The notes beneath the pieces were generated by a model that saw only the letters and a list, made by a program, of their open reading frames with translations, was not told the origin of the DNA and made no database searches. The translations under genes and the position numbers were made by a program. This document shows, one piece after another, positions 9,198 to 22,083 of a stretch of DNA of 33,298 bases. The stretch's first letter is position 1. Each line of letters opens with the position of its first letter. This DNA is from Armatimonadota bacterium (GTDB taxonomy: Bacteria > Armatimonadota > Zipacnadia > Zipacnadales > FEN-943), in NCBI GenBank assembly GCA_003170595.1, contig PMZA01000543.1, positions 1 to 33,298 on the forward strand. Reading direction: 5' to 3'.

Positions 9198-9204
9198 ACA
9201 AGTC
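9198..9204 (-). promoter_or_regulatory. GACTTGT element, copy 1
   Basis: GACTTGT followed by CCC on the minus strand, about 125 nt before the PrimPol start codon and oriented toward it. It also abuts the plus-strand ATG at 9205. It is one of six copies found in the mobile block. Confidence 0.4.
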
Positions 9205-9447
9205 ATGACCGCGGGGCACACAGCACCGCGCGCACGCCCCGGGGCCACGACCGATATGCAGAGAACTCAAACTACCAAGGGACCAGGTACAGGTAAGTCC
9301 GGGGCGGTGTGCTGCCGCAGAGCACCCGCAAAGGCAAAGGCACTGGACATTCCGGATTGCGGCCCAAACCGCATCCAGGGCCAGCCAGAGCGAACTCTGA
9401 AGAACATTAGTTCGCCCCGACAGAGGCGCCCGCAGGTCAACCCCTAG
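9205..9447 (+). CDS. Small basic hypothetical protein
   Basis: An 80-residue frame with a very good ribosome site: AGGAGG at 9191-9196 lies 8 nt before the ATG, inside a longer purine run. The product is rich in Arg, Lys, Pro, Thr and Gln, with no hydrophobic segment; two adjacent cysteines lie near its middle. It matches no family I recognise. It is divergent from the PrimPol gene and ends in TAG like most small genes of this block. The basic composition would suit a DNA- or RNA-binding peptide, but it could also be a chance open frame. Confidence 0.35.
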   Translation: MTAGHTAPRARPGATTDMQRTQTTKGPGTGKSGAVCCRRAPAKAKALDIPDCGPNRIQGQPERTLKNISSPRQRRPQVNP

Positions 9448-9881
9448 TAACCAGCGTCCCAGCGCAAGGCAGGGCCCGCCGAACGCCGGGTCCGACCATC
9501 CTCAGGACCTTGACCCCCGGGGAACCTCGCCGTGGGACCACAGGGGCGAGTTTGGTGCGCCGGGCCCTGCCATCCAAAGCCAAATCGTGTACAGACGTTT
9601 CATCAGAGTTAGTTTGGCTATTTACGACCTCCGGACCGGGGAGACCCAAGCGGCGGCATGGTTTGAAGTCGCGAATTGCCAGACGTTTCCCCCTCGGCCC
9701 GACCGGAAATTTTCGGGCGCGCAGGATCCTCCGTCGCGGACCTTCGTGGCTGCGGTTTCAGTCGTTCCATGCGAGGCAAGTCGGCTGGGAGAGCCCTAGG
9801 ACGGCAGCGATGCGGCAGCAATGCAACGGCTGACGGGCCTTTTCCAACAAGCTTTCAGATCATCGCATCGTGTCACCGGCG
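9448..9881. other. Intergenic, no supported gene
   Basis: Between the small ORF and the ParB-methylase gene I see no domain on either strand. The long plus-strand frame starting at 9821 only becomes protein-like after 9959. The segment is GC-rich with scattered short inverted repeats and one AT-richer patch around 9600-9630 (TTAGTTTGGCTATTTACG) that might hold a promoter. Confidence 0.35.
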
Positions 9882-9888
9882 CGACTTG
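9882..9888 (+). promoter_or_regulatory. GACTTGT element, copy 2
   Basis: GGCGCGACTTGTCGGG lies 70 nt upstream of the ParB-methylase ATG at 9959 and points toward it. Its flanks (G-C before, C-G-G-G after) resemble the copy at 19752. Confidence 0.45.
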
Positions 9889-9958
9889 TCGGGCTGGTCA
9901 AGGCGGGGTCAGGGCTCGTCCCACCCGCCAGGATCAGAACGACAAGGAGTGGACCAAC

Positions 9959-11326
9959 ATGCAGCAGCATCAAACGAAGGACAAGGATTTGGGCACCGAG
10001 ATGGAACAGACCGGATTAGGCTGCCAACCGGCTGCGCAGAGCCCGGTTGCCCAGAGCACCGAGCGCCGGGAGCCTGAATGGGAAGCCGACGCCCTGCAGG
10101 TTGACAGCATCCGCGTCGGTGAGAGGGCGCGGAAGGACCTCGGGGACACCGATGCGCTTGCTCGAAGCATCGACAAGGTTGGTTTACTACACCCAATCGT
10201 AGTAACCTCCGACCTTCTACTTGTGGCAGGACAGCGGCGGCTGGCGGCTGTTCGGCAGTTGGGATGGACGCATGTTCCCGCCAACATAGCCGCGGATCTC
10301 AACGACGCGCTTCGCTTCGAGCTGGCGAGCCGCGACGAGAACACACAGCGCAAGGACCTTCTGCCCTCCGAGATGTATGCGCAGGCCCAGCGGTTGGAGC
10401 CCCTAGAGCAGGAGGCGGCGCACGGGCGGCACAACGAGCAGGCTAAGGTCAATCTCGGTCTGACCGACAACGCAAACTTTGCGCCGTCGGAGAAGGGCGA
10501 GTCTAGAGCCAAGATCGCTCAGGCCGTGGGGACCAGCCACGGCACCCTCAGGAAGATCGAAACGGTCGTGAAGGCTGCGGAAGAAGACCCCGAGACCTTC
10601 GATCCCATGGTTGCCGAGATGAACAAGACTGGCAAGGTAGACCGAGTCTACAAGAGAGTGCTGAGGTTCCAATCCAGGGAAAAAGCCCTGGCCAAGGTAG
10701 AGGATGGAACGCTACTCGACATGGTGGACCTGCGGGAAGGCGATTTCCGGGAGGTCCTTGTCGACTTGCCCGACGAATCGGTCGCCCTGATCTTCACTGA
10801 CCCGCCCTACGACAAGGCGAGCGTCCCCCTATACGGCGACTTAGCTGAACTGGCTGCCCGGGTGTTGGTGCCTGGCGGCAGTCTCATCACGTATTCCGGC
10901 AGATGTGCCCTGGAAGAGGTCATGCGCCTGCTGGGCCGTCACCTCACCTATTGGTGGCTGGCGGCGGCGAAGCACAATGGGGCGTCCACCCGGATGCCTG
11001 GAAAAAGCGTGTTTGCCGAATGGAAGCCGTTGCTCTGGTATGTCAAAGGGAGCCGGCGCGATCAAGAGTTCGTCTCGGACTTCGTGACTTGCGGGCCGCC
11101 TGGTGAGGGCTTCAAAAAGTACCATGACTGGCAGCAGGACATTATCCCGGCCCAGTATTACGTGGAGCGTCTCACGCAGGAAGGAGAAACGGTGCTGGAC
11201 CCATTCGTGGGATCGGGCACGACGCTTCTGGCAGCCGTTCGGGCAAATAGGTGCGCCGTCGGCGCCGAGATCGATCCGAAGGCAGCCAAGCTGGCCCGGG
11301 TGAGACTCTCCGAGGCCCTCAGTTGA
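9959..11326 (+). CDS. ParB/Spo0J-like domain fused to beta-class DNA (adenine) methyltransferase
   Basis: This 455-aa fusion starts at ATG 9959, with AGGAG 9 nt upstream. Residues about 45-200 form a ParB/sulfiredoxin-like N-terminal domain (LLVAGQRRLAAVRQLGW replaces the usual GERR box, residues 87-103) followed by a helix-turn-helix-like stretch (IAQAVGTSHGTLRKIETV). Residues 250-455 are an N-4/N-6 methyltransferase with motif IV DPPYD (281-285) before motif I DPFVGSGTT (414-422), the beta-class order. DPPY favours N6-adenine methylation. Such fusions occur in phages and plasmids and may protect DNA or mark it for partition or replication control. No restriction endonuclease is adjacent. 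A perfect 15-bp hairpin follows the gene. Confidence 0.87.
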   Translation: MQQHQTKDKDLGTEMEQTGLGCQPAAQSPVAQSTERREPEWEADALQVDSIRVGERARKDLGDTDALARSIDKVGLLHPIVVTSDLLLVAGQRRLAAVRQLGWTHVPANIAADLNDALRFELASRDENTQRKDLLPSEMYAQAQRLEPLEQEAAHGRHNEQAKVNLGLTDNANFAPSEKGESRAKIAQAVGTSHGTLRKIETVVKAAEEDPETFDPMVAEMNKTGKVDRVYKRVLRFQSREKALAKVEDGTLLDMVDLREGDFREVLVDLPDESVALIFTDPPYDKASVPLYGDLAELAARVLVPGGSLITYSGRCALEEVMRLLGRHLTYWWLAAAKHNGASTRMPGKSVFAEWKPLLWYVKGSRRDQEFVSDFVTCGPPGEGFKKYHDWQQDIIPAQYYVERLTQEGETVLDPFVGSGTTLLAAVRANRCAVGAEIDPKAAKLARVRLSEALS

Positions 11327-11404
11327 CAAGGTGGCCTTCGCCTACGGACTGAGGTCTCTGGGCGCGGACTGCGAGCCGGCTGCTGTACATACGACCTCTG
11401 CAAT

Positions 11405-11454
11405 GCTTGCCCGGGCGGCTGGGATGATTATCTGTTAGGGCCGCCCGGGCAAGC
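11405..11454 (+). terminator. Perfect 15-bp stem-loop after the ParB-methylase gene
   Basis: GCTTGCCCGGGCGGC (11405-11419) is fully complementary to GCCGCCCGGGCAAGC (11440-11454) around a 20-nt loop, about 80 nt after the stop codon. There is no following T-run. It is the strongest simple hairpin noticed in the window and most likely ends or protects the transcript; a protein-binding or recombination site is an alternative. Confidence 0.55.
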
Positions 11455-12397
11455 TGCCGGGGTGCGGGTGGAGAGCTTCGAAGCACCGGCCAATAGCGCT
11501 GGCCGGTCGACCGCGCCATTCGACAGGGAAATGCGGCTTGGCGGTGTGGGTTGTCGATGATAGTTCTTGCTCTTGCTAACGCTGGTGCCCCCGGTTGAGA
11601 TAGGAACGCATAAGTCCCTCGGTCGGAAGCCAAACCATGCTGGTACCGACCTGCCCGAGCGGATTTGGCGAACTTGTGCAGATCCACCGTAAGTGCTCGG
11701 GCAACGGCACCCAGGTAATCCTGGATCATTGGCGTAGTCTGTCGGCTCCGGCTGGGAGTTAAGCCGGCAATGGTCCTCTTGCGTCCTCGATGTCGGTGAG
11801 CAGTGTCGCTACTCGTTCCATGTCCCAGGCGCTGTACGGGGGGCGGCCGCGTTGCAGTGGCGGATCGGAAGACTGGAGCCGAGCAGAGCGTGAGGGAAGC
11901 GGGGAAGGGTTTCATTCCAGTTATGTACACCCTAGAATCCTTGCTGGGCAAAAACATGCGTCCTCGGGGAGGGAATTTTTGCTGTCGAACACAAGAGCCT
12001 GAAGAAAGTCTGGTGGCGGGGAGGGAGTTTCCCAAGGCGGGCTTGGCTTTCCCGTCCGTTGGGCTGCCGACCAAGAGACGGCCGCGCGATTGAGTATAAT
12101 GGAAGGTTGCTCCGCGCTGATCGAGGAGATCTGCGAAGCAATGACCGCGGAGCTACAGCGGAAAGCAGTCCTGGAAGCGGCGCCGTAGAGGGCGTCTGGA
12201 AGAAAGTTTCGGATGAGGCAGGAGGCTGGGAAGGCGCTGGCGTAGTTGCAGATCCAGTAGCGAGCGCCCCGATGGTTGGAGCGCCGCAGAGCAGAAGCAG
12301 CTTGTTCGTCGTGCCAGCGCGGGCGCGGCGGGGCATCACAGGGGGACGACGGGGCGGGTGCTGAGCGTGCTGAGCGCCAGCGGCCCAAAGCCTCGGG
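11455..12397. other. Long intergenic segment without a supported gene
   Basis: About 0.9 kb with no recognisable product. A 251-codon minus-strand frame (11319-12074) is Arg/Pro/Ser-rich and looks like a chance frame. From 12099 a plus-strand frame begins with coding-like helical sequence (ALIEEICEAMTAELQRKAV) but is broken by TAG at codon 30 and twice more later, so it may be a decayed gene. TATAAT occurs at 12095-12100 without a clear -35. Tandem GTGCTGAGC copies lie near 12359-12376. Confidence 0.4.
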
Positions 12398-12434
12398 TCT
12401 AAAGGCTCGCCCCAAGCCCCCCTGAACCTTTAGA
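12398..12434 (+). promoter_or_regulatory. Leader stem-loop next to the ribosome site of the primase-helicase gene
   Basis: TCTAAAGG (12398-12405) pairs exactly with CCTTTAGA (12427-12434) around a 21-nt loop. The 3' arm ends one base before AGGAGG (12436-12441), the Shine-Dalgarno sequence for ATG 12449. Folding could affect ribosome access, so this is a candidate translational control element. Confidence 0.45.
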
Positions 12435-12448
12435 TAGGAGGCGTTTGC

Positions 12449-13528
12449 ATGAGCACGACCCTTGAGGACTTGCCTGTCCGGCAGGACGAGCTTGACGAGA
12501 TCGAGCAGTACTGGCGTGAGGATCCGGTGCAGTTTCTCCGCGATCTAGGCCACGACCCCGCCCCTGAAAACGCAGGTGGCGACTCCATCCTCGGCTGGTG
12601 TCCGGCGCATGCCGAGCACAACACCAAGAGCCTGCAGATCAACCTGGCCAGTCACAAACTGCCAGGCTGGTGGACCTGCTACGGCGCCTGTGATCGGCAG
12701 GGGAAAGGTGCCGTTGATCTTGTTCGCGCCATGCTCGAATGGCACGGAGCCAGCGCGGAAGAAGCGACCATCGAGGCCGCCGTCCAGTACATCCGCGACC
12801 ACGTGAGTCTTGGCCAGCCGTTCGTCTCCGACCGAGCCGAAGAGGAACCACAAACTGTCGAAAGGCCGAGCCGCAACCATGATCCTCTGGAGGACGACCA
12901 CTACATCCCGCCGTGTGCAGGCGATGGGTCCAGTCCCACGGGGCGCGCCGTGTGGGATGCCCATCTCGACCTGATGGAGCACGCCAAGGGTGGCGGCTTG
13001 ATCGACGGCATGACGGTACTGGAATACGCTCGCGAACACCGATGCTGGTCAGACGAAGTGATGAAGCGCGCGCTGGTCGGGGTGAAGGACGGCGATCCCA
13101 TGCGCATCCTGTTTCCGGTGCCGGCACTGGACAGCATCTGGCCGCCGGCTGATGCGTATCCTTCGCTTGGACCCAAACCTTCCCCGATGGAAAGACGAGA
13201 CGTACACCCAGTGGCTTGGGGAGATGGACAAGGCGCAGCTTGTCGACTGCCGGCGGCACCGGTGCGACGGCAACCCGACCGACAAGAGCATGCCCTGGAA
13301 GAAAGATGTCCATGCGGTGTGGTACGGCAGGCATCTATGGCGCTCCCCGGAGCCGGACACGATCATCTGGACGGCTGGCGAACCAGACCTGCTCGCGCTC
13401 GTCTCCGCCGGGCTCCCCGAGGGCGTGGAAGCGATCACGAACACATGCGGCGAGGGCACGCTCCCACAAGGCAAGGTGCCCTGGAGCTGGCGGGGCAAGA
13501 CAGTGGTGGTCGTCACCGACTGCGATGA
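12449..13528 (+). CDS. Primase-helicase, N-terminal zinc-finger part (frame breaks near 13130)
   Basis: The ATG is preceded at 7 nt by AGGAGG. The first ~100 residues form a CHC2-type primase zinc finger with C51-x2-H54 and C77-x3-C81 (WCPAHAEH ... WTCYGACDRQGKG), which recognises template during primer synthesis. The frame is coding-like to about LFPVPALD (codon ~228), then turns into Arg/Pro/His-rich nonsense up to the stop at 13528. The continuation of the protein is in the +1 frame (ASGRRLMRILRLDP), so the genuine gene is probably 12449-15080 with a one-base slip between 13130 and 13140. The slip could be a sequencing or assembly error, a real mutation, or programmed frameshifting. The neighbouring element genes are intact, which favours error or programmed shift. 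Confidence 0.65.
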   Translation: MSTTLEDLPVRQDELDEIEQYWREDPVQFLRDLGHDPAPENAGGDSILGWCPAHAEHNTKSLQINLASHKLPGWWTCYGACDRQGKGAVDLVRAMLEWHGASAEEATIEAAVQYIRDHVSLGQPFVSDRAEEEPQTVERPSRNHDPLEDDHYIPPCAGDGSSPTGRAVWDAHLDLMEHAKGGGLIDGMTVLEYAREHRCWSDEVMKRALVGVKDGDPMRILFPVPALDSIWPPADAYPSLGPKPSPMERRDVHPVAWGDGQGAACRLPAAPVRRQPDRQEHALEERCPCGVVRQASMALPGAGHDHLDGWRTRPARARLRRAPRGRGSDHEHMRRGHAPTRQGALELAGQDSGGRHRLR

Positions 13529-15080
13529 CGCGGGGCGCAAAGCCATGAGGAAACGGGCAGATTTCCTTTTCAAGCAGGGCGTAGCCCAGGTGCAATGGGC
13601 ACGGCTTGAACCCGACCGCGTGGACAAGTTCGACCTCACCGATTTCATACGCGAGCTCCCCGACCGCTCCGAAGCCTTCGACGCGATGATGAGCACGGCA
13701 ACGCGCCTTTACTCCGATGCCCAGAGCGACAACGCGGACATTCCCCTGGCGATCCGCAACCTGGAAGAGGAGAGAGACATCGAGTACCTAGACGAGCCCT
13801 GGCTAGCCCGAGGGTATCTCAACATCATCGGCGGACCCAGTTCTCAGGGGAAATCGTGGATTGTGCAGCGGAGCGCCACTGCCTGTCTGGGGTACACCGA
13901 TTTCCCTTCGGGCCATCCGTCGACCGTCAAGGGGAGGGTGCTATGGTTCGACACTGAGATGAGGTTGCCGGTAATGAAGCAGCGCTTGCTGGACGCCGGA
14001 CTCCCTCTTGACGATCCCAACCTGATCTGCCTGGAGGTGCCTGTTCTGGCGGTTGAAGACAAAGGATTACGGTCAGATACGGGCAGCACCGAGCCGCTTC
14101 TGCTTTACAACAAGTGGCATCGGCAGTACGTGAGTAGCATCGTCCGGCAGATTAGGCCCGTCCTAGTCGTCATCGACACCTTCACGGCCGCGATGGGCGA
14201 GTACGAAGGCAAGAACGACAAAGTAGCCGAGGCCATACGCTGGCTCGCGATGCTGGCTCGCGAGTTCAACATTGCCATCATCATCGTCCAGCACGTGAGG
14301 AAGCTCGGCGCCGACGAGGCTGCCGAGGCCGGTGGCGACGAGGACTGGGTCGCACCCCGCCGACCGATGAGGGAGGATCTGCGCGGCTCTGCGACCATCT
14401 ACACCATCACGCCGGTGGTCGTACTGATGTACCAGCCCGTCAAGGACTTTGCCAGGGTTTGGTTGGATAAGGCAACGACGGGCGGGGCTGGCGTCGCGTA
14501 CGGCGTGGACTTTCGGACAGGCAAGGGCAAGCCGCCAATCTTCGGGACTGCGGCGCCCTCTCCATCAGCCGGGGCTCACAACGCCCAGGCAAAGGCCGCG
14601 GCTTGGGTCATTGAACGGCTGAGCCAGCTGGCAGACGGCGAGTGGATCTGGAACGGGGATCTCAAGCGGGAATTCCTGGCGACAGGCATCTGCGGGGAGA
14701 GAAACTACGACGGCGCTCTCGCCGACCTCAAGCGCCAGAAGATCGTGGAGGAAGGCAAGCCAGATCTTCGAGAGAGGCGCGTATTCCTCCGGCTCACCGA
14801 AGCCCACCAAACGAACACCACAGCGTTGCCGGCGAGCGTCGACCAAGAGAAAGGTGGGGGAGATGAAAGCCAACCCCCGGCGGATCCCGAGAAGATAGTT
14901 CGGACGGAAACCACTGGGGTACCCGCCGACTCTGGACCAAGAGAAGAAGTAGTCATGGAAGAACAACAAATCCCTGAACTGCTTGAGGGTCTCACAGAAG
15001 GCTTCCTCGAGATCTCTGGTGAAGACGGACCCGAGAAGGATGAAGGCACCTCGATCCTCTCCGCTCAGGGAGTCCTGTGA
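13152..15080 (+). CDS. Primase-helicase, TOPRIM plus RecA-like ATPase part
   Basis: This frame carries a TOPRIM domain with its Glu in TAGEPDLLAL (E77) and D-x-D in VVTDCDDAGRK (D123/D125), the primase catalytic metals. It is followed by a RecA-like/AAA_25 ATPase with Walker A GGPSSQGKS (227-235) and Walker B VLVVIDTF. A later IIIVQHVRK resembles a sensor or L-region. The architecture (zinc finger, TOPRIM, RecA-like) matches phage and plasmid primase-helicases of the RepA/gp4 style. ATG 13152 has no good Shine-Dalgarno sequence and lies inside the TOPRIM-linker reading (GRRLMRIL), so it is probably not a true start; see the 12449 entry. The last ~120 residues are acidic and Pro/Glu-rich. It ends in TGA, and the TGCAGAC array begins 7 bp later. 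Confidence 0.75.
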   Translation: MRILRLDPNLPRWKDETYTQWLGEMDKAQLVDCRRHRCDGNPTDKSMPWKKDVHAVWYGRHLWRSPEPDTIIWTAGEPDLLALVSAGLPEGVEAITNTCGEGTLPQGKVPWSWRGKTVVVVTDCDDAGRKAMRKRADFLFKQGVAQVQWARLEPDRVDKFDLTDFIRELPDRSEAFDAMMSTATRLYSDAQSDNADIPLAIRNLEEERDIEYLDEPWLARGYLNIIGGPSSQGKSWIVQRSATACLGYTDFPSGHPSTVKGRVLWFDTEMRLPVMKQRLLDAGLPLDDPNLICLEVPVLAVEDKGLRSDTGSTEPLLLYNKWHRQYVSSIVRQIRPVLVVIDTFTAAMGEYEGKNDKVAEAIRWLAMLAREFNIAIIIVQHVRKLGADEAAEAGGDEDWVAPRRPMREDLRGSATIYTITPVVVLMYQPVKDFARVWLDKATTGGAGVAYGVDFRTGKGKPPIFGTAAPSPSAGAHNAQAKAAAWVIERLSQLADGEWIWNGDLKREFLATGICGERNYDGALADLKRQKIVEEGKPDLRERRVFLRLTEAHQTNTTALPASVDQEKGGGDESQPPADPEKIVRTETTGVPADSGPREEVVMEEQQIPELLEGLTEGFLEISGEDGPEKDEGTSILSAQGVL

Positions 15081-15086
15081 TATGAC

Positions 15087-15315
15087 TGCAGAGTGTGCAG
15101 ACCAAGGTCTTCTGATCTTCATTCTCCTTGATATTTCAAGGGATTCAACTCTGCAACCCCTCCTTGCAGACCATTGCAGAGCTTGCAGACCATCTCATCT
15201 CTCTTCCTTGATGGTCTGCAATCTAGGACCTAGATCTGCAAAGGTCTGCAAGACCGATTGCAGACCGGAATTGCCATGCAGGACAAGGGAATTCGGGATG
15301 GTCTGCAGGTCTGCA
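15087..15315. repeat. Heptamer array TGCAGAC/GTCTGCA (candidate iterons/origin)
   Basis: Exact TGCAGAC or its complement occurs at 15096, 15165, 15184, 15214, 15244, 15259, 15301 and 15309; one-base variants are at 15087, 15149, 15175 and 15234. The last two exact copies are 8 bp apart, and most forward copies read TTGCAGACC. In the middle, ATCTAGG-A-CCTAGAT (15221-15235) is a perfect palindrome flanked by heptamers. Chance would give well under 0.1 copy. The array starts right after the primase-helicase stop codon, mirroring the array behind the PrimPol gene. Iteron origin is inferred. Confidence 0.65.
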
Positions 15316-15693
15316 GCTGATTCTTCCAGATCCTCGATCAGATGCTCCTCTCTTCGGATCCGACTCCCGGCTCGAGTCCACTAGTTGCGCGAACCCATCA
15401 GGGAGTCTAGACACGGGCCCTTCTCGTCAACATTCCTCTCCCGGCCACTCACTGCTGTGCCTCGGAGCATTCGTGACCACGATCATCTTCGAAGATCCCA
15501 GAGGAGGACCATCTCAGGCTTGAAGGATTTGGTCTGTCTCCCCATGTTCTTCTCTTGGTCCCACTCGGGCTGTACAGCGGTGGTTTTCGTCGGTGCGCCA
15601 CATAGCCAAAGGGGGCTCCGCGGTTCCTACGATACGGCCGTAGGCCCCTCCCTACACACTCGCAGGGGGCCAATCCCTATGTCCTCCAGCAGG
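15316..15693. other. Intergenic with dense hexamer palindromes and a hairpin
   Basis: No gene is supported. GTCAACA, the heptamer of the other array, occurs at 15426. Six-base palindromes are crowded here: GGATCC 15356, CTCGAG 15371, ACTAGT 15380, TCTAGA 15406 and GGGCCC 15415. CCTACG (15626-15631) pairs with CGTAGG (15639-15644), with AGGGGGC/GCCCCT arms outside. This forms a structured hairpin that could terminate the minus-strand gene ending at 15694. Confidence 0.4.
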
Positions 15694-16137
15694 CTACCTC
15701 ACCGCCCTCAGCCTGACGAAATCCCCGCTGTCCGGCAACCACACACCGGCGAGGACCATGCCGTCAAACTCGACGGTGACTCGGTGTGCCTTACGTACAC
15801 CAAACAGCTGGAACTGGGGTCCGAGTCTTGCCGCCGGCAGGAACTGGTCGCCGGTCCATGTCGTCATCATCGCGCCTCCACCTGGTGTGGGCTGGACGTA
15901 GGGATTGGCGGCACGGTATTCCCGGGTGAGTTCTTGCTCCAGTGCCACCGCGTGTTCGCGACAGAGGTGGACGGTGCTGCCGATGAGTCCCTTAGATGAT
16001 GGCACGCCGATCCGCTCCAGGCAGGCGTTGGTCCGCTGGTCGGTGTTGGCGAAGTAGGCGACATTGCTGCTGCACGGGCTGGGCCTCTCCACTGTGCCAC
16101 ACACATCGCAGGGCGGGCCGCACTTAACTTTGCTCAT
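15694..16137 (-). CDS. Hypothetical protein with N-terminal cysteine cluster
   Basis: A 147-aa product of unknown function. The N-terminus has a C-x3-C-x2-C pattern (KCGPPCDVCGT) and later Cys and His (ACLERIG, HLCREHA), consistent with a small zinc-binding fold. The C-terminal third (HRVTVEFDGMVLAGVWLPD) looks like a compact beta domain. It starts at ATG 16137, exactly 10 nt after a GACTTGT element on its strand, and no Shine-Dalgarno sequence is obvious. It is divergent from the ArdC-like gene across 135 bp. It ends in TAG. I do not recognise the family. Confidence 0.6.
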   Translation of the reverse strand: MSKVKCGPPCDVCGTVERPSPCSSNVAYFANTDQRTNACLERIGVPSSKGLIGSTVHLCREHAVALEQELTREYRAANPYVQPTPGGGAMMTTWTGDQFLPAARLGPQFQLFGVRKAHRVTVEFDGMVLAGVWLPDSGDFVRLRAVR

Positions 16138-16147
16138 GCTTGCCTAG

Positions 16148-16154
16148 ACAAGTC
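16148..16154 (-). promoter_or_regulatory. GACTTGT element, copy 3
   Basis: GGGCGACTTGTCTAGG on the minus strand, ending exactly 10 nt before ATG 16137. It is arranged back-to-back with the copy serving the divergent gene. Confidence 0.55.
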
Positions 16155-16255
16155 GCCCGCTACGCTCGGCCAAGGTGCTCGACCGTCTCGTCCGGTCGGT
16201 GTGTCACAAGAACTGCCCTCAGGAGCCGGTGCTTTCGCCGTGGCCGTTGGCTGGT

Positions 16256-16262
16256 GACTTGT
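16256..16262 (+). promoter_or_regulatory. GACTTGT element, copy 4, overlapping a -10-like box
   Basis: GGTGACTTGTATAGT ends its 7-mer exactly 10 nt before GTG 16273, with the same spacing as copies 3 and 5. TATAGT (16262-16267) lies only 5 nt before the start codon. The transcript could therefore be leaderless if this is the -10 box. Confidence 0.55.
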
Positions 16263-16272
16263 ATAGTAAACC

Positions 16273-17226
16273 GTGACCACGAACGGAAGAGCCCCGATCC
16301 CAGACGAGAAGAAAGCCCAGCGCAAGGCCAGGGTTGACGCCATTCACGCGACGGTCCTACAGCTCGCCGAGGCCATTGCCGACCCCAACCAGGGCGACGA
16401 GACGTTCGACCAGTACCTCCGCTTCGTCTCGCAGTTCCACCACTATAGCTACAACAATGTCTGTAGCGTCCTTGCTCACCGCCCGACGGCCAGCCGCATT
16501 GCCGGGTTCAGGGCGTGGCTCAAAGTCGGCCGCCATGTCAAGAAGGGCGAAAAGGGCATCCCGATCCTCATCCCTCTCCACAGCAAGACCAAGACCGTCC
16601 TCGATGAGGTGACGGGCGAAGAGACCGAGGAGCCTGGACGCGTCTACTTCGGCTTGGGCCACGTGTTCGATGTGAGCCAGACCGAAGGGGACCCGCTGCC
16701 GAACTTCAAGGCGGACCTGGGCGAGGACGGGAAATCGCTTCTCGCCGCCGCCGTTCGAGCCGCTCAGGGACTTGGGTTTTCCGTCACCTTCGAGCCCATC
16801 TTCGGCGACGTCAATGGCTACAGCAACGCACTCACTGGCGCCATCACCCTCAACTCGGAGCGCAGCGCGGGCGTCTTGTGCCAGACAGCTGTACATGAGC
16901 TCGTCCATAGCATTTGTCACCGTCGGGCTATGGGCGAGAAGCAAGACCTCCAGGCCCATGCCCTGATCGAAGGTGAGGCGGAAGCTGTCAGTGTCGCGGT
17001 CATGCACTGGCTGGGACACGACACGCTGAGCAACGGTTCGCAGTACATCAAGAGCCATCGAGCCACCGCTGAAGTTATCAAACGCTCACTTTCCAGAATA
17101 GCTAACTGCGCCCGCCTGATAATCGACGGCATGGAGTCCGAGTTGGCGGCGATGGGGATCAGGGTCGGGGATGAAGTCCAGGAGAACGCCGAAGGTGGGG
17201 AAGAGGCGGTCGAAGTGGCGGCCTAG
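16273..17226 (+). CDS. ArdC-like antirestriction protein (ssDNA-binding domain plus zinc metallopeptidase)
   Basis: The 317-aa product has the ArdC/LtrC N-terminal domain at residues about 20-130 (FHHYSYNNVCSVL, FRAWLKVGRHVKKGEKGI), which binds single-stranded DNA. Residues about 160-300 carry a metallopeptidase-like domain with the zinc motif H-E-L-V-H (AVHELVHSICHR) and a downstream acidic helix (IEGEAEAVSVAV). ArdC proteins on plasmids protect incoming single-stranded DNA from host nucleases and restriction. The start is the GTG at 16273; no internal Met precedes the conserved region. It lacks a Shine-Dalgarno sequence and is preceded by the GACTTGT/TATAGT element. It ends in TAG. Confidence 0.82.
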   Translation: MTTNGRAPIPDEKKAQRKARVDAIHATVLQLAEAIADPNQGDETFDQYLRFVSQFHHYSYNNVCSVLAHRPTASRIAGFRAWLKVGRHVKKGEKGIPILIPLHSKTKTVLDEVTGEETEEPGRVYFGLGHVFDVSQTEGDPLPNFKADLGEDGKSLLAAAVRAAQGLGFSVTFEPIFGDVNGYSNALTGAITLNSERSAGVLCQTAVHELVHSICHRRAMGEKQDLQAHALIEGEAEAVSVAVMHWLGHDTLSNGSQYIKSHRATAEVIKRSLSRIANCARLIIDGMESELAAMGIRVGDEVQENAEGGEEAVEVAA

Positions 17227-17334
17227 CGCGATGATGGTTGGCGGATGTGCTCGCGGTTGTCTGTGGTGGGTGCGCCGGCGTGAGAAGCAACGGCGACCGC
17301 GGTGTTCAGGTTCATCGACTCGGAGGAAACCAAC

Positions 17335-17601
17335 ATGACGAGATACGCCTTCATCAGCGATTGTGGTGCGTCCGGATTACCGCAGGTGCTCGTGGTGAGG
17401 GACACGCGTGAGGAGATCGTCGCGGCTGCGCTCACGGTATACAACAGAAGGTACGGCCCCGAGCGTGAGCACAGCATCTCTCCTGATGAGGACTGGAGCC
17501 TATGGATCGACGACGAGGGCCGCGGCGAGTTCGAGCGGCTAGGCAACGTCCAGAGCCGCGAGGAGATCGAGTGCTTCTTTGAGCGCGGCGCCGAGGTCTA
17601 G
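17335..17601 (+). CDS. Small acidic hypothetical protein
   Basis: An 88-aa frame starting at ATG 17335, 8 nt after GGAGG (17322-17326), ending in TAG. The product is acidic, with an EEIVAAALTVYNRRYG helix and a WSLWIDDEG segment. It has no signal peptide, membrane helix or known motif. It follows the ArdC-like gene by about 110 bp and precedes another small gene that has a GACTTGT element between them. It is probably an accessory gene of the mobile block. Confidence 0.6.
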   Translation: MTRYAFISDCGASGLPQVLVVRDTREEIVAAALTVYNRRYGPEREHSISPDEDWSLWIDDEGRGEFERLGNVQSREEIECFFERGAEV

Positions 17602-17606
17602 CAGGC

Positions 17607-17613
17607 GACTTGT
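17607..17613 (+). promoter_or_regulatory. GACTTGT element, copy 5
   Basis: AGGCGACTTGTCCTCGG sits in the 22-bp gap between two small genes; its end is exactly 10 nt from ATG 17624. Its position in such a short gap argues for a site close to translation or transcription start, and it helped to choose that ATG. Confidence 0.55.
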
Positions 17614-17623
17614 CCTCGGTGGC

Positions 17624-18013
17624 ATGAGCGTCAGTCTCAGCTTGATGGCGGCAATGACGAATGAAGAGAACCTCGAGCGGGAGCGAGAACGGGGAGCCGA
17701 AGTGCCAATCTTCGCCGTTCTCCCTGCATCCCACCTTCACTCCCTGCGAGATGTGCAGAAGCCTCTGGGTTTGGGAGCCCTCCACGTGCCTACCTGCCTT
17801 GAGCCCCTCGAGGACGGCGAGACCGGTGAACGCTCGTTCACGATGGACGCCTACAACCAACCCCTTCAGTACATCACCACGGATGAGCTACTCGCGGCCA
17901 TCAAGAGGCTGAAGACCGTCCCGCCGCTCGTCGCCGGTGTTAGGGCCTTCGTGCAGGGCTACCGCGAGTGCTACGGGGACGTGTGGGACGTGTGGATCTT
18001 GTACTGGTGCTAG
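17624..18013 (+). CDS. Hypothetical protein
   Basis: A 129-aa frame ending in TAG. The second half looks coding (TMDAYNQPLQYITTDELLAAI, then a helix and an aromatic tail WDVWILYWC). The first third is weaker. The frame is open from TTG 17579; ATG 17624 was chosen because it stands 10 nt after a GACTTGT element, though ATG 17645 or 17654 are possible. No family is recognised. Confidence 0.5.
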   Translation: MSVSLSLMAAMTNEENLERERERGAEVPIFAVLPASHLHSLRDVQKPLGLGALHVPTCLEPLEDGETGERSFTMDAYNQPLQYITTDELLAAIKRLKTVPPLVAGVRAFVQGYRECYGDVWDVWILYWC

Positions 18014-18114
18014 TCGCAAGGCCGGATGAACGGTCGTTCACTCCTGGACGCCCGCCCGATCTGGCTGAAGGCGTTGCGGCATGACATGAATGGCGTTGCC
18101 CCCGTGAGAACACC

Positions 18115-18486
18115 ATGGAAACCAAGAGAACTACGCCAGTGATCTTCCGGAAGTGGAAGGACCCTGACGGCGGCATCATCGCCCTTCTCGTCTGCGAGCC
18201 GTGCAGCTATGACCGTGCGGAATTGGTGACCTCCTACGAGCATCTTGGTCAGCACGGCGCCGCTCTGTACACCGGTGTCATCGCTTCCACGTTCCCCGCC
18301 AAACCCGAGGAATACGCCGACCTGCTCCAGGAGTTGGTGAAGATCGGCTACACAGACCTGAAACCATATCGCCGGACACAACCCTGGATGCGGGAAGAGC
18401 GGGCGAGGACGATCCAGCGCTGGCGGGAGGCTGACCGGCGGCAGGCAGAGACGACGGAGCGGTTGGGCTTGGAGGCGAGATCGTGA
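18115..18486 (+). CDS. Hypothetical protein, mobile-element type
   Basis: This is a 123-aa product with a mixed alpha/beta N-terminal half (TPVIFRKWKDPDGGIIALLV, then a Cys and a helix). The C-terminal helix is highly charged (REERARTIQRWREADRRQAE). Small proteins of this build are common in phage and plasmid accessory regions, but I cannot name a function. The Shine-Dalgarno sequence is weak. The stop overlaps the next start (TGATG). Confidence 0.6.
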   Translation: METKRTTPVIFRKWKDPDGGIIALLVCEPCSYDRAELVTSYEHLGQHGAALYTGVIASTFPAKPEEYADLLQELVKIGYTDLKPYRRTQPWMREERARTIQRWREADRRQAETTERLGLEARS

Positions 18487-18692
18487 TGGGGAAGCCTCCG
18501 GCAGGGCTCAGCGGCTGTCGCTACCGTTGCCTTGACTGTGGGCTCCACCTGCACGGCAGGCGGGAGTGCATCGGCCACGCCGCCATTTCACAGTGCCGGC
18601 AGTTCGCCACAGTGAAGTCCGGGCGGGTCCTTGTCGCCAGGCGAGATGGGCGCGGCAGGTTGGAACTCGTGGCGGCGGGGCATCTCCCGTAG
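18486..18692 (+). CDS. Small cysteine-rich (zinc ribbon-like) protein
   Basis: A 68-aa frame, with ATG 18486 (or GTG 18483) overlapping the upstream stop codon. C-x3-C-x2-C (CRYRCLDC) and later C, H and C residues could bind one zinc. It is translationally coupled to the previous gene and ends in TAG. About 200 bp without a gene follow before the recombinase. Confidence 0.5.
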   Translation: MGKPPAGLSGCRYRCLDCGLHLHGRRECIGHAAISQCRQFATVKSGRVLVARRDGRGRLELVAAGHLP

Positions 18693-18898
18693 TCGGGCAG
18701 CTGGTAGATCGGCACCAACCGGCACGGTGGGGGCTAGGTGGAGGTATGCCGCGGCATCCTTCTGCGGACGCCTGAAGTGCTCACGGTCGCCTCACGTACA
18801 GCCGGATTTCGACGGGATTCGCGGGCCGACACAAACTGCGTTTTGGGAAACCGAACCTTTTCCTGAAACACGCCACGCTCCAAACGACACAGGAGGCG

Positions 18899-19645
18899 AT
18901 GAGAACGGCACGACCGAGGGGCTCAAAGCAAGCGCGAGACCAACATGCGAGGCTCCAGACGGGGGCCGGCAAGGTCATCGGCTACGTCAGGGTGAGCACC
19001 GCGGGGCAAGCCATCAACGGCCACTCACTCGATGGGCAGCGGCGCCGGCTTCAAGAGGTTGCGGAAAGGGAAGGGCTCCTGGTCACTGACATCGTGGAGG
19101 AAGTGGAGAGCGGGGCGAAGGAGCGTGAGGCGCTGGCAGAGGTACAGCGCCGCATCCTGGCGGGCGAGGCGCAAGGGATCCTCTTCCCTAAGGTCGACCG
19201 CCTGGGGCGCAGCCTGCTTCATCTTCTAAAGATCGTCGAGTGGGCCGTCTCTAACCGCGTTGACCTCATCTCCGCGGACGAAGGCTGGCAGGTGAAGGCG
19301 GGGGAGAAGGTCGACCGAATGCTGCCCTTCCGGCTCGCCATGGCGGAGGTGGAGCTGGAGCGCATAAGGGAGAGGACCCGCGAAGGCCTCAAAGCGGCGA
19401 GGCAAAAGGGCATCAGGCTGGGACGCCCGGTCGAGAACACGGGCGAGTTGGCGGAGCGCGCTGTTGCGATGAGACGCCAGGGCATGACGCTCCAATCCAT
19501 CGCGGACACGTTCAACGGCGAGGGGACAACGACAGCAAGGGGAAAGCAATGGTCCGCGACAACGGTTTACGACATGATCAACCGCGTGGATCCCAAAGCC
19601 AATCCTGTGGGTGGGTATAGAGGAAGAAGGGGTGCCGCCGCGTGA
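18899..19645 (+). CDS. Serine recombinase (resolvase/invertase family)
   Basis: The 248-aa product has the catalytic N-terminal domain with the nucleophile Ser in GYVRVSTAGQ (about residue 33), QRRRLQEVA, and the Arg motif KVDRLGRSLLHLL. The long E helix includes VELERIRERTREGLKAAR. A C-terminal helix-turn-helix follows (TLQSIADTFNGEGTTTARGK, WSATTVYDMI). The size fits a small resolvase or DNA invertase rather than a large serine integrase, so it probably resolves dimers or inverts a segment. ATG 18899 lies only 2 nt after AGGAGG, unusually close. No alternative start fits better, because the catalytic domain begins about residue 26. Confidence 0.88.
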   Translation: MRTARPRGSKQARDQHARLQTGAGKVIGYVRVSTAGQAINGHSLDGQRRRLQEVAEREGLLVTDIVEEVESGAKEREALAEVQRRILAGEAQGILFPKVDRLGRSLLHLLKIVEWAVSNRVDLISADEGWQVKAGEKVDRMLPFRLAMAEVELERIRERTREGLKAARQKGIRLGRPVENTGELAERAVAMRRQGMTLQSIADTFNGEGTTTARGKQWSATTVYDMINRVDPKANPVGGYRGRRGAAA

Positions 19646-19751
19646 GGAGCAGTGAGCAAAGGGCTTCGCCTGGACGATAGGAGACGTGCTGACTCGCCTT
19701 CGTGTCTCCAGCCGCTCCAGACCGCGACACCGAACAGCTGCCTTAGTCGGT

Positions 19752-19758
19752 GACTTGT
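19752..19758 (+). promoter_or_regulatory. GACTTGT element, copy 6
   Basis: GGTGACTTGTCGGGGAG ends 13 nt before ATG 19772, and here the following bases also supply a Shine-Dalgarno-like GGGGAG. It is the last copy to the right; I found none outside 9.2-19.8 kb. Confidence 0.5.
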
Positions 19759-19771
19759 CGGGGAGATTGCG

Positions 19772-19966
19772 ATGGCGGCAGACAACGACGCAGGGGGAAC
19801 GCATCTACCGGCCTCGAGCTTCACGCTCTTCGACCCCGATGACCCCGCGCTGTAGCCTGGCGACATCCAGCCAGGGATATACCGTCGAGCGGGCGTTGTG
19901 GCGCTGGTCCGCAACCACAAGGACAACCCGGAGGTGATTCAGTTCATCGCTGACATGATGGAGTAG
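19772..19966 (+). pseudogene. Small gene interrupted by an in-frame TAG
   Basis: Reading from ATG 19772 (GGGGAG 6 nt upstream, GACTTGT element before it), the frame has strongly coding-like sequence on both sides of a single TAG at 19853-19855. It reads FTLFDPDDPAL, stop, PGDIQPGIYRRAGVVALV, then ends HKDNPEVIQFIADMME and TAG at 19964. The restored protein would be 63-64 residues. TAG is one change from AAG (Lys) or CAG (Gln). The family is unknown. It is either a recent nonsense mutation or a sequencing error; true read-through is less likely because intact genes here also end in TAG. Confidence 0.5.
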
Positions 19967-21328
19967 GCGCGGGAGGGGCGTTCTCCCGGGGAAGATCGTC
20001 GAGCATGAGGCATCATCACGGCCACCGACGGCCTGCGTTGACTTCTACGCCGCTGTGAGCCCCAACCGCCCCCACACAACTTGCTCCGCCGAGCCGGCCC
20101 AGATGCCCGTTGCTGCGTTCTCGGCCAAATCTGGGCGCATTTCCCTCGTCCGGCAGCGACGACCCGCCCGGAGCCATGGCGCGGTGCTGTAGGCGCGTGC
20201 GGTGTTCAGAGCGGTAATGCGCCATGTCGAGACCACCAAAGGATAGCCGGTGGCGGAGGCAGAGCATCGGTCTGTGGGAGCGGCTCGCCCCCGTTCGTTA
20301 GGCATGCTCGTCGCGCGCAGCTACCGGGCCGAGAACAGTGCCGGGCCGGGCGAAAGCCGCAGATCTCCAGAGCCAACAAGCAAGCCCTATGAACAGGGAC
20401 TGCCGCCGGCTACTTCGTGCCAAGGTCGAGTGGTGAAACGCACATGGCCTGAGCCGCGTCCAGGGCCGTTTTCTCGGTAGGGGCAATGTCTGCTCATCCA
20501 ACGACGATTACGCTTTTGGATTCGATTGACGAGGTCGATTCATGACCGCCGCAAAATCCTTCAAGAAAGTAGAGCATTGTTTGGGCATTAGACACAGTTT
20601 CGGCTCGAAGACTGAGTTTTTCCAGCTTGCGCGAAGCCGATGGGAGAGCCCGCCAGACCATCGCGGAATGCAATGTATGGGCCGCCAAAGCATGCCACGG
20701 AGGCAGCAGGCAGGCAGAGCCGCCAGTTCTTCGAGCTGTCCTACTCTTCGTTTCCAAAACCGTATATCGATTCCAAAACTGGATTTGGATTCGCGATTAC
20801 ATATATCACTGATGCCCTGGATCCTCATGCTCGACTAGAAACCCCCAAAACCGTTCTCCTAGCCCCGGGGTTCTTCTTGGGTTCTCCGTAGCCACATGGT
20901 AGGGAATAGGACCAGCCTACCCGGGAACGCGGGATGGACGATTACAGGGGACCATCGCACGTCGCCCTATGGAGATGGCAGGACGAGATCGCAACGGACG
21001 TAGTGTGGCCACCGCGGCGCCCAGCTGGCATCTTCTTACCGCGCTGCGCCTTGCTTGTCGCCTGGGGTGGAAACCGCGCTGCATCACCTGCCCCTTGGGT
21101 GTCGCGGTTCAGACCATCCAGAGCACCACGACCACCAGCAGAATAGGGGGCTTCGGGTTGGCGCTACCTGAAACGCGAGGTGTTCTTGGTCCAAGGGCGA
21201 ATCTGTACATCAGATGGGTGGCTGAACAGCGGATGAAGAAACGACACCCCTTTGCTATGGGTAAGCCCGGTCAGAACCGCCAGAGCGTGATAGGGCAACT
21301 TGAAGGTGCAGGCAAGGAGGGGAAGCCC
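19967..21328. other. Long stretch with no supported gene
   Basis: About 1.36 kb in which open frames on both strands are short, of biased composition and without motifs. An AT-richer patch near 20740-20815 repeats TTCCAAAAC twice and contains ACATATAT. The frame from 20969 leads into the tyrosine recombinase remnant, but its first 120 codons do not look like protein. This is probably decayed DNA at the edge of the mobile block. Confidence 0.4.
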
Positions 21329-21907
21329 ATGAGCGAGCAGGTGGTGAGCTACAACGCGGAGATGGAGGGCTTCATTGAGTACCTGGTGATGGAGAGGTCG
21401 AGTTCGGCAAATACCGTCGCGGCCTACAAGCAGGACCTGGTGGATTACTCGCGCTGGCTGAGCAGTCAGGGCAAGAGCAGCTTTGCCCAGGCTGAGACCG
21501 AGGACGTGAGGGAGTACTTGGACCAGCTTCAGAAGGTCCATAAGCGAACACGGGCGACGGCTGCACGGCGGCTGAGTGCGATACGGAGGCTTTACCGATA
21601 CCTCCTGCGCGAGGGACAGGCCCAGCGCGACCCCACGGTGAAGGTCGAGTCCCCCCGAAGCTCGGCCGTCGGCCACCGCCCTTGTTGAGTGTGGAAAAGG
21701 GTCTGAACCTCGGATCGTGGTCCACGTCCAATGCGAGTTTCCACGCCTGACCAGGGATCAACCTACAGCCTTGGGAGAAGCATCGTTCCGCACGCCACGG
21801 TCAAGCCGCCAGTGTCCAGCCCCACCACCAGCCGCATGACGGAGCGGTACACGCATGTGCATCCTCTGGCGGTGGCGCAGGCGATGGGAGCAATAGAGGA
21901 AGGGTGA
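21329..21907 (+). pseudogene. Tyrosine recombinase (XerC/D-like) lacking its catalytic core
   Basis: ATG 21329 has AAGGAGG 8 nt upstream. Residues 1-110 are an intact core-binding (SAM-like) domain of XerC/XerD type (FIEYLVMERSSSANTVAAYK, then RRLSAIRRLYRYLLREG). The frame then ends at 21688 after 119 residues. In the same frame, 21812-21907 encodes what looks like the extreme C-terminus, with the catalytic tyrosine in RMTERYTHVHPLAV. The segment carrying Arg, His-x-x-Arg and most of the catalytic fold, normally about 150 residues, is missing. An internal deletion is the simplest explanation. It is not expected to recombine DNA. Confidence 0.65.
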
Positions 21908-22083
21908 TGGGGGAAAGAACTCCGGGAGCGGTGGGTGACCTGTAGCTGCGATGGCCGACGATGAGACATGAGGATCAAAGTCGGGGGCAGGACCAAGTAG
22001 AAGTCTTCACCAAGATCCAACTTGGCACTGCTTTCGGGGGCAAGGTCACCGGCTCGTCCCTGCCGGCCGAAGAGGCGGCTTAG

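Follow-up and report, generated by a model that had tools for sequence, protein, structure and literature searches.

A candidate establishment regulon marked by a compact 16-bp motif in plasmid-like elements of an Armatimonadota bacterium

A contig of an uncultured Armatimonadota bacterium (GenBank assembly GCA_003170595.1, contig PMZA01000543.1; the window is the whole 33,298-nucleotide stretch analysed here) contains a mobile block in which the heptamer GACTTGT recurs just ahead of start codons, among them that of a gene for an ArdC-type anti-restriction protein. Is this recurrence anything more than chance, and, if it is, what kind of signal could the heptamer belong to?

From a heptamer to a 16-bp motif

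An earlier note, made by eye, had listed six copies of GACTTGT, all intergenic and all within the mobile block. An exact count on both strands gives eight (1124-, 5273+, 9198-, 9883+, 16148-, 16256+, 17607+ and 19752+), against a chance expectation of 2.67 +/- 1.5, and none of 100 shuffles of the window reaches this number. The two overlooked copies, 1124- and 5273+, fall beyond the limits of the block, each within a long ORF (359-1861 and 1858-5367, respectively), and one listed copy is at 9883+ rather than at 9882. The spacing to the start codon, on the other hand, was given exactly for four sites: 10 nt at 16148-, 16256+ and 17607+, and 13 nt at 19752+. The proposed extended context GGYGACTTGT is likewise present at these four sites and missing from 9198- and 9883+, whose contexts (CATGACTTGT and GCGCGACTTGT, respectively) misfit it, as well as from 1124- and 5273+. 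Because of this misfit, and because neither copy is among the 12 top matches in the window to the held-out matrix described below, 9198- and 9883+ are best read as chance heptamers.

The four remaining sites share a strict 16-bp motif, WRGCRGGYGACTTGTM. Alignment of 16 sites from the genome yields the contiguous motif W-R-G-C-R-G-G-Y-G-A-C-T-T-G-T-M, in which position -5 is exclusively A or T, and a search from -60 to +70 across the same 16 sites found no further conserved block, including one at -35. A matrix trained on the 12 sites outside the window, all from other contigs, ranked the four window sites at the top (20.96-24.34 bits), with the next window match at 14.1 bits and the best match in 40 shuffled windows at 18.1 bits. 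Across the assembly (6.45 Mb, 553 contigs, 84.5% complete) the scores are bimodal, with 16 sites at 21-27 bits followed by matches at 14 bits and lower. These 16 strong sites are held by four contigs, the window contig (C462), C106, C367 and C547. The shorter pattern GRYGACTTGTM matches 24 times in the genome, 16 times within these four contigs, which total ~72 kb; the other eight matches are dispersed over as many contigs and lie mostly in coding-like sequence, and the reversed pattern, used as a control, gives 24 matches across the whole genome. The held-out test thus rejects a chance heptamer for the four 16-bp window sites, which are almost certainly real. Chance clustering fits the other four window copies (1124-, 5273+, 9198- and 9883+), and we accept it for those; as an account of the whole pattern its probability is close to nil, since it is contradicted by the held-out matrix, by the genome-wide clustering and by the retention of sites between paralogues.

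Sites and genes on four contigs of one genome

Two of the window sites form a divergent pair. The site TAGCGGGCGACTTGTC (16147..16162, minus strand) stands 10 nt before the ATG of a 147-aa gene (15694..16137, minus strand), the product of which has a Cys-rich N-terminus and falls in no Pfam or PHROGs family, and TGGCTGGTGACTTGTA (16248..16263, plus strand) stands 10 nt before the GTG of ardC (16273..17226, plus strand; 317 aa), identified by matches to Pfam ArdcN (1e-9) and to the anti-restriction family phrog_7245 (5.6e-14). Downstream, TAGCAGGCGACTTGTC (17599..17614, plus strand) precedes by 10 nt the ATG of an acidic 129-aa gene of no known family (17624..18013, plus strand; pI 4.9), whose homologue on C106 is also led by the motif. 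A TAG within this site doubles as the stop codon of the ORF before it. The fourth site, TAGTCGGTGACTTGTC (19744..19759, plus strand), lies 13 nt before the ATG of an ORF at 19772..19966 (plus strand) that contains a single in-frame TAG after codon 27; the part beyond this TAG is similar, as read from sequence, to an ORF of contig C346. The motif precedes only these four window genes, and the genes for the ParB/methyltransferase, the Rep-helicase and the resolvase have none, so the description of the site as element-wide was too broad.

The same anatomy recurs on the other contigs. A start codon lies 10-13 nt downstream of 10 of the 16 strong sites: besides the four in the window, these precede ardC, the 129-aa homologue and a 151-aa gene on C106, a RuvB-like ATPase gene on C367, and a RuvB-like ATPase gene and a 233-aa acidic gene on C547. 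Three sites are further away, namely C106 3925- (ATG at 35 nt, with a strong Shine-Dalgarno sequence), C367 2114- (start codon at 47 nt) and C547 8524- (RNase-H-like nuclease, GTG at 53 nt or ATG at 92 nt), and three have no convincing gene behind them (C106 2389-, C367 4371- and C547 12101+). Each gene has one motif copy, oriented with the gene, and sites occur on both strands; three divergent pairs, ~97-115 bp end to end, provide one site per gene. Apart from ArdC, the products encoded beside the motif are mostly unfamiliar, often acidic small proteins. Shine-Dalgarno pairing is almost nil in eight of nine near-site genes and present in the three far-site genes. Its absence would be expected if near sites gave leaderless or short-leader mRNAs; because host genes show only moderate Shine-Dalgarno use in the same test, and because the numbers are small, this evidence is weak and at most suggestive.

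The gene content of the four contigs, which includes integrases, ParB/methyltransferase fusions, ArdC and Rep-like genes, suggests that they are mobile, integrated plasmid-like elements. The ORFs scanned on these contigs, which are fragments, included no recognisable relaxase or transfer gene, and no regulator gene common to C462, C106, C367 and C547 was identified. Genes for a serine recombinase and a tyrosine recombinase lie near motif sites, and a truncated transposase-like ORF begins next to C106 2389-.

The element on C106 is paralogous to that of the window and has diverged from it, with 84% DNA identity in the ardC region and 70% in the next block. At ardC and the 129-aa gene (the C106 homologue of which includes Ns) the 10-bp core is identical between the two and the 10-nt spacing is kept, whereas similarity in the upstream 60 nt and in the 9-nt linker is close to random. 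The earlier note had named loss of the motif and its phasing in close relatives as evidence against a functional site; both are retained in the paralogous C106. An extra C106 site precedes the homologue of the window gene at 18115-18486, the window copy of which has none. Beyond this genome, no motif cluster was found in 291 genomes of the phylum, and matches in 60 nearer relatives are at chance level. The divergent-pair pattern gave three matches in IMG/VR and 28 in GTDB contigs; these were chance-like and had no additional sites nearby, a tandem repeat in L104 excepted. No close relative of the ArdC protein was found in GTDB and IMG/VR contigs, and a count of 10-mers at ArdC loci of distant genomes is uninformative, since the method missed the motif on the very contigs that are known to carry it. 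As no cluster appeared elsewhere in the phylum or in IMG/VR or GTDB contigs, paralogues within a single genome supply all of the evidence.

Other ardC genes have private upstream sequences of their own. Two further contigs of this genome that encode ArdC, C346 and C518, represent a second element family and carry no 16-bp motif; they contain a repeated AGGTCGACRGYCGACCTCAGGAT-N8-GACCRNCA, situated some tens of nt upstream of ardC and of neighbouring genes. The palindromic core of this repeat has 16 strand matches in the genome, against zero for the reversed control, and a near variant is absent from 45 class relatives. Planctomycetes bacterium K2D has a mobilizable plasmid, pK2D_1, on which the gene for an ArdC relative and the three small genes that follow it share the upstream sequences TATCACGCGG-TCAAGGGCCGCT and GCAAAGGCTTCCCCTTGACC-CGCGTG, four copies each. 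The C346/C518 and pK2D_1 sequences sit well upstream of a Shine-Dalgarno sequence plus ATG. A Kocuria plasmid, by comparison, showed no upstream repeats before most of the genes near its ArdC gene. Relatives of the window ArdC occur on 1670 PLSDB plasmids, the majority of which are typed as conjugative or mobilizable.

Candidate roles for the motif

The strict form, orientation and placement of the sites invite comparison with several known signals. A sigma54 -24/-12 promoter is alike in length and spacing, but was rejected since both invariant dinucleotides fail: in the consensus alignment the first G is A in nine of the 16 sites, and T replaces the -12 C in all 16. To SP6/T7-type promoters the motif bears a resemblance only in the string AGGTGAC; PF00940, the family of single-subunit RNA polymerases, was not found in the 84.5%-complete assembly, and control genomes were likewise silent. 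The single-strand promoters Frpo/ssi drive early anti-defence genes of the leading region on entering DNA and need a stable hairpin (PMC11541004). An early switching-on of anti-defence genes as DNA enters the cell would be the shared feature. Here, however, both strands are used, and eight of eight sites tested show no hairpin as ssDNA or RNA, folding no better than shuffles (z-scores -0.7 to +0.9), which disfavours this type of promoter. The motif region has no match to an Rfam family.

A translation-start element acting in mRNA, which would recruit the ribosome or bind an RNA-binding protein or a guide RNA, has its precedent in the Start-Associated Sequences (SAS) of Cluster K mycobacteriophages. 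These are short asymmetric sequences, repeated 11-19 times immediately before the start codons of non-structural genes, in nearly a single orientation and absent from the host, with a Shine-Dalgarno core 3-7 bp from the start (PMC3203893). The motif is likewise a short asymmetric repeat before start codons and private to its element; it lacks the Shine-Dalgarno core and stands 10-13 nt or more from the start, which places it outside the SAS class. A motif that stands at an almost constant 10-13 nt from the start codons of unrelated genes, with scant Shine-Dalgarno pairing at near sites, would suit an mRNA element of this layout, as would the variation at positions -4, -3, -2, +1 and +2, which consists mostly of transitions that keep G-U pairing. 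Positions -5, -1 and +10, however, vary by transversion, some sites lie 35-92 nt from a gene that has its own Shine-Dalgarno sequence, and the C346/C518 and pK2D_1 sequences stand well upstream of theirs. We consider a translational role unlikely. A related reading, which we also judge unlikely, is that of a single-block start signal, either a promoter used through an element-encoded transcription factor, with nearly leaderless mRNAs as its products, or an element that recruits ribosomes in a non-Shine-Dalgarno manner or pairs with a guide RNA, which would switch on incoming anti-restriction genes independently of host signals.

The motif might instead bind a repressor that halts elongation into the gene and form no part of a promoter, as do the stoperators of Cluster A mycobacteriophages, 13-mers spread across the whole phage genome and bound by an immunity repressor that recognises asymmetric sites as a monomer (PMC9283540). 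Here, too, asymmetric sites lie in short intergenic gaps, oriented with transcription, and each element has several of them. The motif is, however, also found at divergent pairs and before genes that have no close upstream neighbour, no such repressor was recognised, and the placement relative to the start codon, stricter than that of stoperators, is not needed for control of elongation; this role seems rather improbable. Still less probable is a site for specific recombination, whether a shufflon, an invertible segment or, as the earlier note had suggested, a mark of modular gene insertion. Inverted pairs do exist (16157-/16253+, C106 2389-/2466+ and C547 8524-/8611+), and the recombinase genes and the truncated transposase-like ORF beside C106 2389- lie close by. 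Yet at the two comparable sites (17604 versus C106:4067, and C367:782 versus C547:10464) homology continues through both flanks, the dyad typical of recombinase sites is absent, and recombination leaves the near-constant distance to the start codon unexplained.

A putative establishment regulon

That the motif is cis-regulatory for the genes of the element is very likely, and that it acts on transcription is likely. The earlier proposal of a conserved, oriented, start-proximal site is borne out, the sites being confined to the mobile block and related contigs, and a promoter component or operator explains them best. On balance we lean towards a promoter or operator of the element's establishment, or anti-restriction, regulon. 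This reading draws on the strictness of the motif, its confinement to four contigs, its orientation and spacing, its retention between paralogues, its co-occurrence with ardC, and the two parallels with unrelated sequences.

The closest published counterpart is found in the pLS20/p576 family of conjugative Bacillus plasmids, in which private sequences are shared by the upstream regions of ardC, of methyltransferase genes and of variable small operons; there are two unrelated kinds of these establishment sequences, EGeRS1 and EGeRS2 (PMC8708921). EGeRS1 is 400-750 bp long and lies upstream of the RBS, whereas EGeRS2 contains a recognisable promoter with TTATCCCnnTTATCCC operators (PMC8708921). 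The asymmetric heptamer repeats of p576 flank a recognisable strong promoter and are bound by a repressor, and repression is relieved upon entry into the recipient (PMC8708921). In the present elements, too, one sequence precedes ardC and several other genes of one element (ardC plus three in the window, ardC plus others on C106), methyltransferase genes are nearby, homologous ardC genes are preceded by unrelated sequences in related elements, and the motif is confined to the mobile element, with 16 strong sites on four contigs only. The site differs in being 16 bp long, in ending ~10 nt before the start codon and in lacking a Shine-Dalgarno sequence, and a second promoter block as in p576 was not seen across the aligned sites. 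As the heptamer TTATCCCnnTTATCCC was not found in the 16 aligned sites and their flanks, the motif falls outside both EGeRS sequence families and is alike in layout only. It is this layout, the same as in the pLS20 family with a much shorter site, that leads to the promoter or operator reading, and we regard the motif as an unusually compact new form of a known kind of regulation.

Under the establishment-regulon reading, the 16-bp motif would serve as a private, per-gene promoter or operator of a small regulon in a family of integrated plasmid-like elements. Its members would be the ArdC-type anti-restriction gene and genes for small proteins, to which the sister contigs would add a RuvB-like ATPase and an RNase-H-like nuclease. 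Every gene of the regulon would own a motif copy in fixed orientation 10-13 nt ahead of its start codon. Transcription probably starts at or beside the start codon, and genes with longer leaders would have the motif further away. By analogy with pLS20/p576, an element-encoded factor may repress these genes in the resident element, and repression may be lifted briefly after arrival in a new cell; the action on transcription, the binding protein, the transcript starts and the transient expression on entry are inferred.

If this is right, a 16-bp string suffices to tag establishment genes, and thereby candidate anti-defence genes, in an uncultured lineage, and the motif-led genes of no known family would be candidates for new anti-restriction or anti-defence proteins. 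Clusters of GCRGRYGACTTGTM offer a search form for independent element lineages that carry the motif. Two unrelated private sequences in one genome, together with a third on a planctomycete plasmid, suggest that tagging of the ardC neighbourhood is common beyond Bacillus, and a private regulatory sequence beside ardC may be usable as a handle for discovery.

Upstream sequences before ardC genes

In the assembly containing the window (G000), a second element family, represented by contigs C346 (L081), C518 (L082), C132, C322 and C534, carries its own repeated palindrome-plus-block sequence upstream of homologues of the anti-restriction gene ardC and of small genes. The planctomycete plasmid pK2D_1 (L164) bears yet another upstream sequence, present in four copies within 11770-14704 before ardC and three small genes, which is of a third kind, unrelated to both the palindrome-plus-block sequence and the 16-bp GACTTGT-cored motif.

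Interrupted and decayed genes

The motif-led ORF at window 19772-19966 (+) contains one in-frame TAG after codon 27, beyond which it resembles an intact ORF of C346; the stop may reflect a nonsense mutation, readthrough or an assembly error. What is left of a decayed integrase at window 20969-21910 is the SAM-like domain of its N-terminus and, detached from it, a C-terminal remnant that recurs at both ends of C106 (L023), which carries a diverged paralogue of the window element. In C106, the start of a truncated, putatively transposase-like fragment (2006-2389, −) adjoins the motif site at 2389 (−).

Methyltransferase fusions and a candidate origin

The window element (9821-11326, +) and that of motif-bearing contig C547 (L025, 8122-9645, −) each encode a DNA methyltransferase with a fused ParB-N-like or HTH domain. 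A single 490-aa ORF of motif-bearing contig C367 (L024, 4508-5980, +) contains a tyrosine recombinase domain together with an N6/N4 DNA methyltransferase domain. Directly after the Rep-like helicase gene of the window (13152-15080), approximately ten copies of TTGCAGACC/GGTCTGCAA in both orientations form an iteron-like cluster (15085-15320), a candidate replication origin.
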